From Flavobacteriales bacterium (lineage in GTDB: Bacteria > Bacteroidota > Bacteroidia > Flavobacteriales_D > Sanyastnellaceae): DNA of 38,544 nt. Where the stretch lies: contig JAIXWP010000020.1 in the NCBI GenBank assembly GCA_027491215.1, positions 1-38,544 on the forward strand, in the 5' to 3' direction. Shown in pieces: positions 30,349 through 38,544 of the stretch. The translations under genes were made by a program, and so were the position numbers. The notes beneath the pieces are model-generated. The model worked only from the letters and a program-made list of their open reading frames with translations, was not told where the DNA came from and searched no databases. The stretch's first letter is position 1. Each line of letters opens with the position of its first letter.

Positions 30349-31437
30349 ATGAATGCAATTAGCAACGATGGTGTGTGGTTTCGATCTATCTCTTCTCGCG
30401 GTATTAGTGCTTGGGGAATAGGTGTTATTCTAACTGGATTCTATGTGGCTTTGTATTGGTTTCCTACATTTTTGGAGCCGTTAATTCGGTTGTTTGATCC
30501 CTTGAGCTTTTTACTTCGAATGAAACCAGCTGATCAATGGTTTTTGTATGGTACATTCTACACGCTTGCTGTTACCATTTTTGGAATAAAGTTTTTGAAA
30601 AAATATAAGGGCAACAAGTATCATTTTTATCGCACACTGGTGCTCATTTTTTGTCAACTCGTATTAGCCTACTTAGTTCCTATATGGCTTAGCAGAATCA
30701 ATCAGCCGGAATTTTACTTTTCTTATTTCTGGCCTCTTAAAAGAGAATATTTATTCCCAAGTGATCTCAGCCATCTCTATAATAGTGGGAACTTTGGTGT
30801 ATTTGCAACTTTTTGGTCTGTGGTCATGATCCTTATTGCTACCCCTATTTTGACATATCATTTTGGAAAAAGATGGTATTGCTCTTGGGTCTGCGGCTGC
30901 GGTGCATTGGCAGAAACTGCAGGTGATTCATTTCGTCAGTTATCAGATACGTCTGTGAAAGCTTGGAAATGGGAACGTTGGATTATTTATTCAGTGTTAC
31001 TTCTTATCGTTGGGCTTACGATTCTTCTTTGGGTGAATAGCTATTACAAAGGGGAAGTGTTAGGAAGTGTTTCTCGAGCATATGCCAAAGGTTATGGGTT
31101 TTTCATTGGAAGTTTATTCAGTGGAGTAGTGGGAACTGGATTCTATCCAATTATGGGTAGCAGAGTCTGGTGTCGCTTTGGTTGTCCAATGGCTGCAATC
31201 TTAGGGATTCAACAACGGTTTTTCTCAAAGTTTAGAATAACAACTAATGGTGGACAATGCATAAGCTGCGGTAATTGCAGCACCTATTGTGAAATGGGAA
31301 TAGATGTGCGCGCTTATGCACAACGTGGAGAAAATATTGTCCGCGCTTCTTGTGTGGGATGCGGTGTGTGCAGTTCTGTTTGCCCTCGTGGTGTTCTGAA
31401 ATTAGAATCAGGCAAAGAGCCAAGAATTAAATTTTAA
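30349..31437 (+). CDS. Membrane-bound 4Fe-4S protein (NapH/CcoG-like)
   Basis: 362 residues. About six membrane helices (e.g. IGVILTGFYVALYWF, FYTLAVTIFGIKFL, LILIFCQL-like VLIFCQLVLAYLV, WSVVMILIATPILTYHF, IIYSVLLLIVGLTILLW, FFIGSLFSGVVGTGFY). Loops carry the family cysteines: YCSWVCGCGALAETAGD and VWCRFGCPMAAILG. The C-terminal cytosolic part holds two ferredoxin-type clusters, CISCGNCSTYCEMG and CVGCGVCSSVCPRG. In NapH/NosR relatives the first motif is usually CxxxCP; here it is CSWVCGCG, so Pro is replaced by Gly. Forms a two-gene unit with the flavoprotein. Its last 11 nt overlap the converging NlpC gene. Confidence 0.87.
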   Translation: MNAISNDGVWFRSISSRGISAWGIGVILTGFYVALYWFPTFLEPLIRLFDPLSFLLRMKPADQWFLYGTFYTLAVTIFGIKFLKKYKGNKYHFYRTLVLIFCQLVLAYLVPIWLSRINQPEFYFSYFWPLKREYLFPSDLSHLYNSGNFGVFATFWSVVMILIATPILTYHFGKRWYCSWVCGCGALAETAGDSFRQLSDTSVKAWKWERWIIYSVLLLIVGLTILLWVNSYYKGEVLGSVSRAYAKGYGFFIGSLFSGVVGTGFYPIMGSRVWCRFGCPMAAILGIQQRFFSKFRITTNGGQCISCGNCSTYCEMGIDVRAYAQRGENIVRASCVGCGVCSSVCPRGVLKLESGKEPRIKF

Positions 31438-32200
31438 TTCTCTTTATTAAACGCAAATTGTGGCTATAACTCTTAGTTTCTTCATTGAAGATGCCTTGAT
31501 GGTCTAATTTGTCTAGTCTAACCTTTCCTGAAGCATGAATTATACTTTTGATTCCTAGCTCTTTTTGGTTAATGATTAAGCCAACATGTGTAATACGTCC
31601 TTCGTGGTTATCAAAAAATGCTAAGTCTCCCGTTTCCGCCTCATCATTGAAAGTAATGATTTCTCCAATTTCCGCTTGTTGATAGGCATCCCTTGGAATG
31701 CTTATTCCATTCATTCGAAAAACAAGTTGGGTGAAACCACTGCAATCGATACCCATCAGCGTGCGACCACCCCATAAGTATGGAGTGTCGAGAAAGATCA
31801 TTGCACCAAGCGCTAGTTCAGCTGGTGCAGTGGCGTTCTTTGCATCCATCGGCGCGCTCAAGAACTTTTTATTTCCACAAATAATTTCAGATTCGCTAAT
31901 GAATCTGACCATTGACCCGGCAGGGAGAAAGGAGAAACCTTCATTTTCATTTCTCACCACAAATAGAGGAGCGGTAACTGATTTTGCATCAGGAACAATC
32001 ATTTCATCAATCGAAACAATCTGTTTCAAATCTACCCATCCGGTATAATTGTCGTGGTTGAGTTGAACCATTGCCCATTTTTCAGTTGTTTCAAGCACCT
32101 CCATTGTTTCCCCAAATAGAACTTGGTTGGTCATTTCACTTCTATCTGAAGGTTCATGACGCATTGGAATGCATGCTAGCGGGCAGATGGCTCTTTTCAT
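31427..32200 (-). CDS. NlpC/P60 (C40) peptidoglycan hydrolase with SH3-like domain
   Basis: 257 residues. An SH3-like region is at ~25-70 (GETMEVLETTEKWAMVQLNHDNYTGWVDL). The C40 catalytic domain is at ~130-240: C153 in WGGRTLMGIDCSGF, H205 in THVGLII and H222 in IIHASG form the Cys-His-His triad. Such enzymes cleave D-Glu-diaminopimelate bonds in peptidoglycan or recycled muropeptides. No clear signal peptide (MKRAICPLACIPMRHE), so it may act in the cytosol on recycled peptides. Converges with the Fe-S gene with an 11-bp overlap. Confidence 0.91.
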   Translation of the reverse strand: MKRAICPLACIPMRHEPSDRSEMTNQVLFGETMEVLETTEKWAMVQLNHDNYTGWVDLKQIVSIDEMIVPDAKSVTAPLFVVRNENEGFSFLPAGSMVRFISESEIICGNKKFLSAPMDAKNATAPAELALGAMIFLDTPYLWGGRTLMGIDCSGFTQLVFRMNGISIPRDAYQQAEIGEIITFNDEAETGDLAFFDNHEGRITHVGLIINQKELGIKSIIHASGKVRLDKLDHQGIFNEETKSYSHNLRLIKRIKI

Positions 32201-32327
32201 GTTGAAATTTTGTGGTTACAAAGATGGTGGAAAGCGTTTAATCGGCGAAAAACATCTATTCGTCTTAATTTTCCCAAGATTATTTTGCTTTTTAATTATT
32301 TGAAAAACAACACTTTACGTTATTTTA

Positions 32328-32421
32328 ATCGACGAATGAGTAAAAAACATCGACGAATATTTGTTTTTTGTCGAAGAATAGCTAATATTTGTCGTCCGAA
32401 ACAATTAGTCTATCGAAATAT
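32328..32421 (+). promoter_or_regulatory. Five 10-bp motifs phased at 21 nt (candidate operator array)
   Basis: ATCGACGAAT begins at 32328 and 32349; GTCGAAGAAT at 32370; GTCGTCCGAA at 32391; ATCGAAATAT at 32412. Every step is exactly 21 nt, two helical turns, with (A/G)TCG kept at each and the intervening 11 nt unrelated. It lies 57-150 nt upstream of the giant repeat protein start. The complement of the best copies (ATTCGTCGAT) loosely resembles LytTR-family direct-repeat sites, whose half-sites are also ~21-22 nt apart (inference). A TATAAT at 32447-32452 follows. Confidence 0.6.
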
Positions 32422-32477
32422 CCCCCTCTGGGATCTTCTTATTTTTTATAATCTAACGTTTAATTTAAACCTACCGA

Positions 32478-35400
32478 ATGAAACATTCTACGTTTTCATG
32501 GGGAAATCAGGTCTGTAGCTCACCGAGTGCAGAATCGATTTCAAAAGCTTTCAAGGCAATGGCTTTGATCGCATTTTTGTTTTTGTGGGGTGGTATTGGA
32601 CTTTTTGCCCAGTCACCATCTTTATCTATTACCGGATCAAATAACTACAATGCCCCTGCAAATAACCCAGGTGGCTATGCGCAGTTACCAAGCGGGTATA
32701 TAGATTGTGGATCTGTTAATGAAGGAGATTGGACTTATTCAGTGATGAGTAATTCTGAGTTTGGATTTGGACCCAAGACAGCTTATTTTCAGGAGAGTCC
32801 TTCAGGATGTACCAATTCAATCTGGACTGGTGGTTACATAGGCTCAACTCCTCATTCATTAATGGCACAAGTCAGCATTGCAGTACCTGCAAATGGTGCT
32901 CTTTTGTCATTTGAATACCTTTCGGCTTTAATAGATGTTCAAAATGATGGATTAGATTATTCTTTCCTCAACATTAATGGCGAGCCTTTCTTTACGGTAT
33001 ATCACGTCGCTTCTAATAACACTAATGATTTCGTTGATGCAACTATCAACATTTCTGAGTTTGCGGGTCAAACAATCACGATTAGTGCAGGAAACGTAAC
33101 CTCTGATGATGCTTTACAAGGTAACGTATTGTTCGGTTGTTTTGCTGTGTTGTGCAGTGATTGCACTCCAGCGTTATCAATGACATGCGCAAGCAATGTA
33201 ACTGTAGAATGTGGCCAAGAGGGCAATCTTGAGCTTACAGGATCTCCAGTTCTTGACATTACAGAGTGTGATGATATGATGGCTGTTAGCCTTAATTTTT
33301 CTGATTTAATCATTTCTGAAACTGCTTGTAACAAAGTAATCGTTCGCACGTGGGTAGCTACGTACGGTGATTTGACTGAAACTTGCACGCAAACAATTAC
33401 TGTAGTAGATACTACTGCTCCAGTGATTAGCGGTGTTGAGCCAGTTGTTACAGTTGAGTGTTTGGAAAATGTTCCTGGACCAGCAGAAGCTTCAGCAATT
33501 GATGCTTGTTCTGGTGCTACTTCAGTAGAATCTTTTACTAGTAACACAGGTGAAATCATTTCACATTGTGATCTTTCAACAGCTTTTGGTCCTGGTCCAG
33601 ATTGGGCTATTTGGTTGCCAACGCTTTATCAATTAGGTTATGCAGCAAGCTCTCAGTTCAACTTTGTTGGATCGGGTTCTTTTGACCAATACAATGATGG
33701 TAGCGCTCACCTTTATGGTACAGTTGCTAATAACATTAACCCAGCTCAGCAATTCCAGGTTGATTTCTGGTTTGATAATGCTGCTGATTGGGCAACATGG
33801 TCTTCAATGGGTAGAAGTTACAAAGACGATCTAAACTGCGCACAAGCAGGCAATCTCTACATGGATTGGACTTACTATGAGATGGTCAACGATTTCTCAA
33901 CTCTTACAGGTATGGGTGACTACGCTGGTGATGTATTATACTTCCAGCACATGCCATCTAACTACTATTTCGGTATGCAAATCGGTCAAGGCGCAAACAA
34001 CAAAAACTGTGGCTTTGGTCTTTCAACTTGGTTCTACTTCAACGGATTCATGGATGGTAACTATGTTACTGGTCATGGTGACGCTAACACTGATGCTTCT
34101 TGTGAGCCAGTAAATGAACAAGATTGCGTACACAACACTGAATTTACGTTCTTATACCGCGCACAAGATGCGTGTGGTCGCGCTTCAATTGTTTCTCAGC
34201 AAATCATTGTTGACGATAATACTCCTCCAACTTTTGTTGACTGCCCAGAATCAATTACTATTGAATGTGGTCAGGAAATTCCTGCAGTTACCAATCCTAA
34301 TGCAGTAGATAATTGCACAGGTGATGTAGTTGTAGCATACCTAGGTGAAGTATTGGAAGGTGACCAGTGTTTAAACACAATCACGCGCACATGGAGCGCT
34401 ATTGATCTTTGCGGTAACCGTTCAAACTGTGTTCAAGTTATTACTGTGGTTGATACAACGGCTCCTAGCTTTGATTCAACTCCAGCTTCTGAAGTTACTT
34501 ACGAGTGCAGCAGCGTAGAAGCTCCTGCAGTTCTTACAGCTACTGACGTTTGTCAAGGTGTTGTTCCAGTTCAATATGAAGAAGCAATCATCGAAGGTGA
34601 GTGCGCTGGACAATATACTATCAACCGTCACTGGTGGACTTCTGACAACTGTCAGAACACTACACATTTCTATCAAACAGTTAATGTTATCGATACTACT
34701 GGTCCTGTATTTGATGAGTATTCATTCTATACACAGATCCTTTGCGAAAACCTTCCAGCAATTCTCACAGCTACTGATGCTTGCGGAACAGCAACTGTAG
34801 AAGTTACTTTCGAACAATTGAATTCTGGTGGATGTCTTGGTGTACTTCACAGAATCTACACTGCTACTGATGATTGTGGTAACACAACTACTACTGAACA
34901 ATACATCACTATCGTTGACTTTACTAATCCAACTATCAATGGTGTTGGAGAGGAGATGTCAGTTGAATGTTCTGATGTAGAAGCAGGAGAAGAATTCATC
35001 TTCGGTGCAGGTGACGTTTACGCTACTGACAACTGTGGTGGTGAAGTTTCTATCAACTACTCAGAAGAAGTGGTTGCTACTGATGACAACTGTCCAAATT
35101 CTTATGATGTGATCCGTACTTGGGTTGCTACTGACTATTGTGAAAATGATACAATGGCTACTCAGTTAGTTCACATTATCGATACTACTGCTCCTTCTTT
35201 TGATGAGTACACTGCTGAACAAAGTGTAAGCTGTGAGTTGGAAATTCCTGCAGCTTCTGTAGTTGTTTCTGATCTTTGCGGTGATGCTTCTTGGACGCAC
35301 GTTGATGTTCGTATCGACGGTTCATGTGACCAGGCATACACTATCGAGCGTACTTTCACTGCAGTTGACGCTTGTGGAAATGAAAACACTCTTGTAACTT

Positions 35401-38400
35401 ACATTTATGTTTACGATGAAACAGCTCCTTCTTTTGATGAAAATGCAGTTGCTGAAATCTCTATTGAGTGTGGTCAAGATATTCCTTATATCGAGCCAGC
35501 TTCAACTGACAATTGTGGTGAAGTAGTTACTACTCACAATGATGTAACTGTTGAAGAATCAGATTGCTTCACTTTGATCCAACGTACTTTCACAGCTACT
35601 GATGAGTGTGGTAATTCTAATAGCTTCGTGCAGTTTGTTTATATTACAGACACAACTGCTCCATCATTTAATGAGTATGCTTTAGAATTGGATCGTCCAT
35701 GTGATGATTACAGTGGAAACTACATCACTGCAACTGATGTTTGCAACAACTTTGAGATTACTTATACAGAAGAAATCGTTTCTGGATCATGCGCTGGTCG
35801 CATAATCCGTGAATACACTGCTACTGATGTTTGTGGTAATTCAAGCACAGCAATTCAGATCATTACTTTGATCGATACAGTTAGCCCAGTTGCTTCTTTC
35901 GTTCCAGAAAACCAAATCGTAGAATGCGGCTCTGCATATGAAATGGCTAATGCTACTTTCACTGACAACTGCGACGATTCACTAGAACCAGAGTTGAATA
36001 TCGAAACAACTTTTGAAGGTTGTAATACTATTTTAACTTACACTTGGACTGTTGTTGATCATTGCTTCAATGCAGCTTCAGCTTCTGCAACAATCACGAT
36101 TGTTGATACTACTGCTCCTTTCTGGGATTTCGTTCCTGCTGATGTAACTATCAATTGTGACGAAGAAATTCCTGCTATTGTGATGGCACAAGCTTCTGAT
36201 GTTTGTGATGAACAAGTAGATGTAGCAGTAACTGAAATGACAACTGCAGGTGAGTGCGCAAACGAACAGACTATCTCTCGTTTATATCGTGCATTCGATG
36301 ATTGCGGAAACGAAATCATGGCTATTCAGTATGTTTATGTTGTTGATGTTACAGCGCCTTCTATGGAAGGTCAGTCAGAAGTAATCGTTGAGTGTGGTTC
36401 TGATATTCCAGAATTAGCACCAACAGCTACAGATGCGTGTGGTGACGTAACTATCAGCTTTGTTGATGGCGAATTTTCATCAAATGCAGTTTGTGGTGAC
36501 CATGATACTTATTTAGGTAGTCAATATGGTAGCGCATCTCATGCTGGTGGCCAATATTTATTGAATAACTTCAATACTGCGTTCCCTAATGGTTTGACTA
36601 TTGGCTGCGGTGGAAATACGATGTCATTCACAAGTGCTCAAGCATTGATAAACTATCTGCCTGTTGGAGGAACACCATCAGTAATGAGCGGCCCTTCTAT
36701 AAACCCTAGCCCTGCAACAAATGGATTAGCAAATCAATTGATCACAGCAATTCTTAATGTTACTTTCGACGAATCAGATGCTTCTTTTTCTAGTTCATAC
36801 TATAACTCAGGAGATTTGATTTTCGCTAATGGCTTATTCGCAGGATTGACTGTTAATCAAGTAATTCAAATTGGAAATAATCACATTGGTGGTTGTTCAA
36901 GCGAGTATACGTTAGTTCAAGTTAGAGATGCGATTCGTGTCTTTAATAGAGCCTACTCTAGCAACTCTAACACTGGTTCATCTGCTTTCATTTGTGAAGC
37001 ATCTCAATCTACATCATGCGATCAAAGCTTCGTAAGAACTTGGACTGCGACTGATTTATGTGGAAATAGTTCAACTTTCGAGCAAGTTATTTCCATAGTT
37101 GATACAACAGCTCCATCTGTAGAAGGAGAAGTTGAAATAAATAGACCATGCGATGATTTCTCAGGAATTTACATCAACTATTCTGATGTATGCCACGATG
37201 TTACTGTTGAGTATGAAGACCAAACTGTTTCTGGCGGATGTCAAGGACGTGTAATCAGAACATACAATGTTATTGATGAATGCGGTAATCAAACTGACTT
37301 CGTTCAGATCATAACACTTATAGATGCAACTGTTCCAGTAGTAGTTGAAGAACCTGCTGATATGACAGTAGAATGTTCTGATCAGTCTTGGACTTATGCA
37401 GATGTAGTATTCACAGACAATTGTGATGATGAAGTTTCAGTTGAGTTCGGTGTTGAATACATGCCTTCTGGTTGTCTTGGTTCTTACCTTGCAACTTGGA
37501 CAGCAACTGACAACTGTGGCAACGTTACAATCGTTGATCAGGTAATTACTATCGTAGATACTGAAAATCCATTCTTCGAATTCGTTCCAGAAAGCTTTAC
37601 AGTAGAATGTTCAGAGGATTTCACTCTTGAAACTCCAAGTGCTAGTGACCTTTGCTCTTCTGCAATCGTAACAATCGCAACAGATACAATTCAAGGTGCA
37701 TGCCCAAGCAATTACACAATCGTTCGTAACTTCACTGCTACAGACAACTGCGGTAACATTGCTGAGGCTAGCCAAACTATTGAAGTAGTTGATACAACAG
37801 CACCAAACTGGAACTTCGAAACTGCAACTTACGAATTGTCTTTCGAGTGTGACGAAATCAGAGCTTCTGTAGAACCTACAGCTAATGATGCATGCAATGC
37901 TGTTGAGATCATGGTAAATGAAACGATTTACTATGAGTCTCCATGTTATACTTCTGGTGCATACATATTCGTAGCAGTTGATGCTTGCGGAAATGAATCT
38001 GCTCCTTTCTATCAGTACTTCACAGTGAACGATACTCAAGCTCCTGAATTCGCACAATATTCAGTGGAAATTGAGCGTCCATGTGATGACTATATGGGAA
38101 CCTTTGTAACTGCTACAGACAACTGTAATGGTGCTGAGATCTCTTATACTGATGAAGCTGTATCTGGTGGTTGTCAAGGTCGTATCATCCGTAACTATAC
38201 TGCAATTGATGCTTGTGGAAACGAATCATTCGCTCAACAAATCATCACATTGACTGACGCTATTGATCCAACAGTTGCTGAGCAACCAATGGATATGACT
38301 ATCGAGTGTGGTGATGATGTTCCAGGATTCATTCCTTCGTTCTCTGATAACTGTGACGATGAATTGTCTATCGAAGCAGCTAGCAGCACAGCAACTGAAG

Positions 38401-38544
38401 GTTGCACTGAAACAATCACTCGTACTTGGACAGCAACTGACAACTGTGGTAATTCTATCACTATTGATCAAGTGATCACTATTGTTGATACAACTGCTCC
38501 AGTATGGAACGGCGAAGGATACTCTGAGACTGTTTCTTGTGGTA
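32478..38544 (+). CDS. Giant exported Cys-rich HYR-like repeat protein, 3' end beyond window
   Basis: Open from the ATG at 32478 for 2022 codons to the window end, without a stop. A long signal peptide ends near residue 45 (MALIAFLFLWGGIGLFAQ); an inner ATG at 32559 is an alternative start. Residues ~46-230 form an N-terminal domain that reads like a carbohydrate/adhesion sandwich. Then come 18 complete units plus a partial one of ~73-88 residues, each closing with a DxCGN-x5-10-(Q/T)xITIVDTTAP-like sequence and holding four Cys (VEC, DxC, gC, DxCGN), as in HYR/Ig-like repeats. Units 2 and 12 carry inserted domains (residues ~360-545 and ~1339-1514). Gliding-associated or T9SS C-terminal domains are expected beyond the edge but not visible. 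Probably a surface adhesin or matrix protein. Confidence 0.9.
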   Translation, partial: MKHSTFSWGNQVCSSPSAESISKAFKAMALIAFLFLWGGIGLFAQSPSLSITGSNNYNAPANNPGGYAQLPSGYIDCGSVNEGDWTYSVMSNSEFGFGPKTAYFQESPSGCTNSIWTGGYIGSTPHSLMAQVSIAVPANGALLSFEYLSALIDVQNDGLDYSFLNINGEPFFTVYHVASNNTNDFVDATINISEFAGQTITISAGNVTSDDALQGNVLFGCFAVLCSDCTPALSMTCASNVTVECGQEGNLELTGSPVLDITECDDMMAVSLNFSDLIISETACNKVIVRTWVATYGDLTETCTQTITVVDTTAPVISGVEPVVTVECLENVPGPAEASAIDACSGATSVESFTSNTGEIISHCDLSTAFGPGPDWAIWLPTLYQLGYAASSQFNFVGSGSFDQYNDGSAHLYGTVANNINPAQQFQVDFWFDNAADWATWSSMGRSYKDDLNCAQAGNLYMDWTYYEMVNDFSTLTGMGDYAGDVLYFQHMPSNYYFGMQIGQGANNKNCGFGLSTWFYFNGFMDGNYVTGHGDANTDASCEPVNEQDCVHNTEFTFLYRAQDACGRASIVSQQIIVDDNTPPTFVDCPESITIECGQEIPAVTNPNAVDNCTGDVVVAYLGEVLEGDQCLNTITRTWSAIDLCGNRSNCVQVITVVDTTAPSFDSTPASEVTYECSSVEAPAVLTATDVCQGVVPVQYEEAIIEGECAGQYTINRHWWTSDNCQNTTHFYQTVNVIDTTGPVFDEYSFYTQILCENLPAILTATDACGTATVEVTFEQLNSGGCLGVLHRIYTATDDCGNTTTTEQYITIVDFTNPTINGVGEEMSVECSDVEAGEEFIFGAGDVYATDNCGGEVSINYSEEVVATDDNCPNSYDVIRTWVATDYCENDTMATQLVHIIDTTAPSFDEYTAEQSVSCELEIPAASVVVSDLCGDASWTHVDVRIDGSCDQAYTIERTFTAVDACGNENTLVTYIYVYDETAPSFDENAVAEISIECGQDIPYIEPASTDNCGEVVTTHNDVTVEESDCFTLIQRTFTATDECGNSNSFVQFVYITDTTAPSFNEYALELDRPCDDYSGNYITATDVCNNFEITYTEEIVSGSCAGRIIREYTATDVCGNSSTAIQIITLIDTVSPVASFVPENQIVECGSAYEMANATFTDNCDDSLEPELNIETTFEGCNTILTYTWTVVDHCFNAASASATITIVDTTAPFWDFVPADVTINCDEEIPAIVMAQASDVCDEQVDVAVTEMTTAGECANEQTISRLYRAFDDCGNEIMAIQYVYVVDVTAPSMEGQSEVIVECGSDIPELAPTATDACGDVTISFVDGEFSSNAVCGDHDTYLGSQYGSASHAGGQYLLNNFNTAFPNGLTIGCGGNTMSFTSAQALINYLPVGGTPSVMSGPSINPSPATNGLANQLITAILNVTFDESDASFSSSYYNSGDLIFANGLFAGLTVNQVIQIGNNHIGGCSSEYTLVQVRDAIRVFNRAYSSNSNTGSSAFICEASQSTSCDQSFVRTWTATDLCGNSSTFEQVISIVDTTAPSVEGEVEINRPCDDFSGIYINYSDVCHDVTVEYEDQTVSGGCQGRVIRTYNVIDECGNQTDFVQIITLIDATVPVVVEEPADMTVECSDQSWTYADVVFTDNCDDEVSVEFGVEYMPSGCLGSYLATWTATDNCGNVTIVDQVITIVDTENPFFEFVPESFTVECSEDFTLETPSASDLCSSAIVTIATDTIQGACPSNYTIVRNFTATDNCGNIAEASQTIEVVDTTAPNWNFETATYELSFECDEIRASVEPTANDACNAVEIMVNETIYYESPCYTSGAYIFVAVDACGNESAPFYQYFTVNDTQAPEFAQYSVEIERPCDDYMGTFVTATDNCNGAEISYTDEAVSGGCQGRIIRNYTAIDACGNESFAQQIITLTDAIDPTVAEQPMDMTIECGDDVPGFIPSFSDNCDDELSIEAASSTATEGCTETITRTWTATDNCGNSITIDQVITIVDTTAPVWNGEGYSETVSCG

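Follow-up and report, generated by a model that had tools for sequence, protein, structure and literature searches.

Operators of LytTR-type regulators such as YpdB, AgrA, VirR, and ComE are composed of repeats of 8-11 nt with spacers of 11-13 nt, corresponding to a pitch of about 20-24 nt or two helical turns, and no consensus is common to all of them (PMC4847170). In most cases, two such sites are located upstream of the -35 box. The LytTR operators of RcoM1 and CoxC consist of three evenly spaced sites at a two-turn pitch; the RcoM site (TTCNNGCA) begins with TTC, and the three repeats of CoxC, a LytTR repressor, lie over the -35 box (PMC11347149). Both belong to single cox promoters. BldC, in contrast, binds head-to-tail to a variable number of contiguous 9-bp direct repeats with an AATT core, which are filled cooperatively (PMC5859096).

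The array described here, which was found in Bacteroidota with TAnnTTTG promoters upstream of a gene for a giant surface protein, falls within the spacing described for LytTR operators (PMC4847170) and also resembles them in the length of its sites and in the absence of a universal consensus. Unlike the usual LytTR operators, it comprises up to five copies, extends into the core promoter, and is built from near-palindromic sites that are used in either orientation. It shares the even two-turn spacing with RcoM1 and CoxC, the initial TTC with the RcoM site, which otherwise differs in sequence, and the overlap with the core promoter with CoxC, whereas the genes concerned form a regulon of giant surface proteins. 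The variable number of direct repeats and possibly the cooperative filling recall BldC, from which the array differs by its pitch of 21 nt. One gene of the regulon encodes a SiaB-family kinase, a likeness to SiaB of the SiaABCD biofilm pathway of Pseudomonas. Searches of the literature for the motif, for LytTR regulators in Bacteroidetes, and for LytTR regulators in connection with type IX secretion yielded no relevant description, and neither did they yield a description of the regulon; the literature searched says little about how giant surface proteins secreted by the type IX system are regulated. On the basis of sequence comparison, the array is predicted to be the operator of a regulon that extends across the family and comprises SiaB and the giant surface proteins exported by the T9SS. 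The conserved promoter-phased operator provides a motif by which the regulon can be listed genome by genome throughout the family and offers a direct test of which LytTR regulator governs surface adhesion in these bacteria.

The array and its conservation

The window, i.e. the whole stretch of 38,544 nucleotides that was analysed, is contig C113 of a 3.17-Mb genome. Between an NlpC/P60 gene on the minus strand and the giant gene on the plus strand (gap 32201-32477), five TCG-centred copies at 32328-32421 follow one another as direct repeats of a single orientation with a 9-nt core, a 12-nt spacer, and an exact pitch of 21 nt (Table 1). Their positions and pitch are those reported in an earlier note on this DNA, and the identity of the first two copies and the two differences in the third, which it had also recorded, were confirmed. 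Site 5 was not counted as a site in motif refinement and register scoring.

Table 1 Features of the divergent gap and its flanking genes in the window
Feature	Position	Strand	Sequence or description	Location relative to promoter	Basis
SH3 + NlpC/P60 gene, divergent	31427..32200	-	Not likely the array target		
Array site 1	32328..32337	+	ATCGACGAAT	Upstream of -33	Sequence; register with -7 box
Array site 2	32349..32358	+	ATCGACGAAT, same as site 1	Upstream of -33	Sequence; register with -7 box
Putative -33 element	32360..32363	+	TTTG		Sequence; TTTG at matching offset in most aligned promoters
Array site 3	32370..32379	+	GTCGAAGAAT, two differences; overlaps TTTGTCGAA	In -33/-7 spacer	Sequence, promoter alignment
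Putative -7 element	32384..32391	+	AATATTTG, one mismatch to TAnnTTTG; orthologues: TATCTTTG/TATATTTG		
Array site 4	32391..32400	+	GTCGTCCGAA	Directly after -7 box, over expected start site	Sequence, promoter alignment
Weak site 5	32412..32421	+	ATCGAAATAT, little beyond TCGA core		Sequence
Giant surface protein gene	32478..38544	+	HYR_4C repeats; at least 2,022 aa, runs off contig end		

As a single motif with at most one mismatch, the site is neither rare nor enriched in the window (16 matches vs 11 expected). Runs at pitch 21, whether of 3, 4, or 5 sites, exceed those in all 400 dinucleotide shuffles, a test that is partly circular, as the motif was derived from the same sequence; the unbiased tests are those on orthologous regions, including the siaB promoters described below. 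For the first of these, NlpC orthologues were selected by protein similarity alone in 114 genomes of the same family, and the gap to the neighbouring gene was read afterwards. Sites at exact 21-nt steps were present in orthologous gaps with a giant neighbour in eight genera (g1, g2, g6, g7, g9, g12, g15, and g16), while copy number (two to four), orientation, and spacer sequence varied among the gaps. In the 11 non-redundant gaps, two sites lie 21 nt apart in 16 cases and 42 nt apart in 6, compared to a mean of 0.03 and a maximum of 1 pair at distance 21 in 300 dinucleotide-shuffled sets. The earlier note had made its proposal depend on conservation upstream of orthologues, which these gaps with their 21-nt pitch display.

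Iterative refinement from the seed TTCGWCGAA led to the consensus TTYRWCGAA, which is based on 47 sites. The site is near-palindromic (TTCG-W-CGAA) and occurs in both orientations among the orthologues, with a shift of 3 nt. Additional pairs at distances 18 and 39 are explained by the near-palindrome, whose two readings are offset by 3 nt.

Register with the promoter and direction of control

The -7 box of Bacteroidota promoters has the sequence TAnnTTTG (PMC10309648). Such a box was present in the aligned promoters, mostly together with a TTTG about 23-25 nt upstream. In approximately 18 distinct promoters, sites in the TTCGTCGAA orientation begin 15-17 nt ahead of the -7 box or a multiple of 21 nt further away, and sites in the opposite orientation begin 12-14 nt upstream, which equals the 3-nt offset of the palindrome. 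A single register of the sites to TAnnTTTG is thus kept in every promoter aligned; it was read by eye and by script, with boxes chosen by the authors that were usually the sole full match in the gap. Most giant-gene promoters share a conserved GAAAAC downstream of the -7 box, at +10 to +15 relative to it (L116, L124, L126, L127, L200, and L202).

The array is very probably a helically phased operator, to be assigned to the promoter of the giant adhesin. One regulator would bind the TTYRWCGAA sites cooperatively and two helical turns apart, so that all copies would share one side of the helix and hold a constant orientation towards RNA polymerase at the TTTG(-33)/TAnnTTTG(-7) promoter. Irrespective of the direction of control, the likely reading on balance is a promoter-phased array that serves a LytTR-type regulator as operator.

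With respect to this direction, a LytTR-type response regulator acting mainly as activator is favoured, and we consider activation the more probable mode. Five loci (L208, L209, L193, L124, and L126) carry strong sites only upstream of -33 and nevertheless keep the phase to the promoter, which suggests that the bound protein has to be turned towards RNA polymerase and hence activates; a steric repressor would need no such phase. It is distinctly possible, if not preferred, that a LytTR-type repressor is involved instead, whose copies in the spacer and at the start site would block RNA polymerase when filled and whose release would turn on the adhesin. Such a role is compatible with the occupation of the -33/-7 spacer and the start site by array sites, as sites 3 and 4 reach into the core promoter, in the window and in most orthologues, the core elements of which are often near consensus, and it has a precedent in the repeats of CoxC.

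Candidate regulators

The genome contains 10 LytTR genes, of which at least four types recur as clear orthologues in G002, G013, and G034. The most conserved candidate is 67-91% identical and has a PAS/HisKA_2 kinase as partner. Another LytTR gene adjoins clpS, which was named from its sequence; its place and the DNA-binding domain of its product (about 50% identity) are kept family-wide (L212 6356-7207, L217 9898-10686, and L219 5148-5867), and the receiver domain is strongly divergent. Among the LytTR genes examined, none was found linked to the arrays or preceded by a conserved array, which speaks against a LytTR-type binder; self-regulation through such an array is common among LytTR regulators and not a requirement. 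On C88, the LytTR gene seemed to be preceded by three GTCG copies in an array; as orthologues do not conserve it, autoregulation was rejected. In genus g4, no match to LytTR types A/B was obtained at 1e-25, no clear siaB was found, and the two NlpC loci examined lack an array; this joint absence is suggestive, as a single co-absence that represents one evolutionary event and depends on the E-value cut-off.

Judged from the pitch and the presence of LytTR genes, the bound protein is probably of the LytTR type. The earlier note had read the locus as a phased array upstream of the giant gene with LytTR-like half-sites; the phased array is upheld by the conserved position, pitch, and promoter register, and LytTR is kept as the best guess from the geometry. 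Three aspects go beyond that reading, namely the location of two sites inside the core promoter, the near-palindrome with its two orientations and 3-nt shift, and a regulon that includes a SiaB-family kinase.

A near-palindromic half-site in both orientations is unusual for the direct repeats of LytTR operators and may speak against this class. The binder might therefore belong to another, perhaps undescribed, class of regulators, the subunits of which would recognise odd TTCG-W-CGAA palindromes every two turns, and the lack of a physically linked LytTR gene fits with this possibility as well. We regard it as possible but less likely, as the pitch is that of LytTR sites and head-to-tail binders of the BldC type use contiguous repeats.

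Further loci carrying the array

Within the same genome, the 21-nt pairs with the fewest mismatches are located upstream of a second giant gene (at least 2,471 aa) beside rpe, upstream of a secreted protein, which is followed by another large protein, and upstream of a DUF6272 gene. A further pair occurs between genes for an M23 peptidase and a bshB1-like protein, both named from sequence without a profile search. The rpe-giant locus carries the array in four genomes. In G013 (L364 1960-19362), the complete giant adjoining rpe and preceded by the same array is a single T9SS cargo of 5,800 aa, with the HYR_4C repeat in its last part.

The DUF6272 gene product belongs to the SiaB kinase family by NCBIfam NF038262 (104.8 bits; cut-off 85) and scores 58.8 with the SiaB equivalog model, far short of the latter's cut-off of 225; compared to the SiaABCD system of Pseudomonas, the promoter array is new. 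With siaB orthologues selected by protein, apart from one locus (L357) that entered via the array search, a 21-nt pair was found upstream of siaB in 20 of 31 regions and 11 of 14 genera, vs 0.55 in shuffles, with a second peak at 42; the remaining 3 of the 14 genera lack such a pair. Sites or pairs precede siaB in more distant genera as well.

The genome-wide statistics represent pattern searches. Exact TCGACGAA/TCGWCGAA pairs that are 11-41 nt apart in the 114 genomes peak at 21 (10 of 48, three of these ten seem to represent a single coding region shared by related genomes; 7 of the 14 with an AT-rich spacer). With a loose two-copy pattern, matches in coding sequences dominate and the frequency is similar to that of the reversed control. 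Several g11 genomes (G118, G101, and G129; L361 1501-1534) have in common an inverted TCGACGAA...TTCGTCGA pair with a spacing of 26 nt, which in L361 lies near an HYR-like gene. Arrays with a 21-nt pitch also occur in another family of the same order upstream of a cysteine-rich protein of 129 aa (L043 and L044; G185 and G056), and arrays precede surface proteins in L016, L029, and L056 too; the regulator may therefore be order-wide.

The distribution of the array points to one undescribed regulator that would switch giant surface genes and the gene of a biofilm-type signalling kinase together. According to the proposed mechanism, the targets of this one regulator would be the giants of both loci, the SiaB-family kinase gene, and further secreted proteins. 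A broader version appears rather unlikely: a single uncharacterised Bacteroidota regulator, possibly not of the LytTR type, would tile promoters on a two-turn grid interlocked with -33/-7, and its regulon would include a partner-switching kinase of the SiaB type, together with which it would coordinate the expression of several giant T9SS adhesins in a joint surface switch. Reg_prop/SpoIIE phosphatase proteins are encoded beside a LytTR gene in the genome of the window (L213 2149-5295) and near the giant in G008 (L363 13965-17099), which together with SiaB in the regulon gives a hint of a SiaA-SiaB-like switch; outside the genus, SpoIIE is not kept beside this LytTR gene.

The target gene and the giant surface proteins

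As the array is situated in a shared divergent region, it might control the NlpC/P60 gene instead of the giant gene, which is very improbable because its register is to the promoter facing the giant gene and because it is absent at NlpC orthologues without a giant neighbour, including that of G002 of the same genus, and at 80 NlpC loci of other Bacteroidota, which were used as negative control only. The array hence goes with the giant gene. The closest named matches of the NlpC protein show at most 48% identity and are mostly from Flavobacteriales. Together with the promoter type and the T9SS cargo, they assign the window to Bacteroidota and probably to Flavobacteriales. The common single motifs and the weak copies 4 and 5 might suggest that the regularity arose by chance in AT-rich DNA or is what remains of a tandem repeat; both readings are refuted by its independent recurrence in different genera, with equal pitch, equal promoter register, and unrelated spacers.

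Complete orthologues of the giant protein comprise 2,867 and 2,697 aa and end with a C-terminal T9SS sorting domain. This type A sorting domain was found in the orthologues L362 and L363 and in the rpe-locus giant L364; the copy in the window ends before the corresponding region. The giants share an N-terminus (window 32478-32615; L050, L102, L110, L116, and L125) with beginnings such as MKHST..., MNFFTNSC..., and MTDSTCCC..., in which a conserved stretch of about 25-30 residues precedes the hydrophobic signal segment, resulting in an unusually long signal peptide that may serve export.
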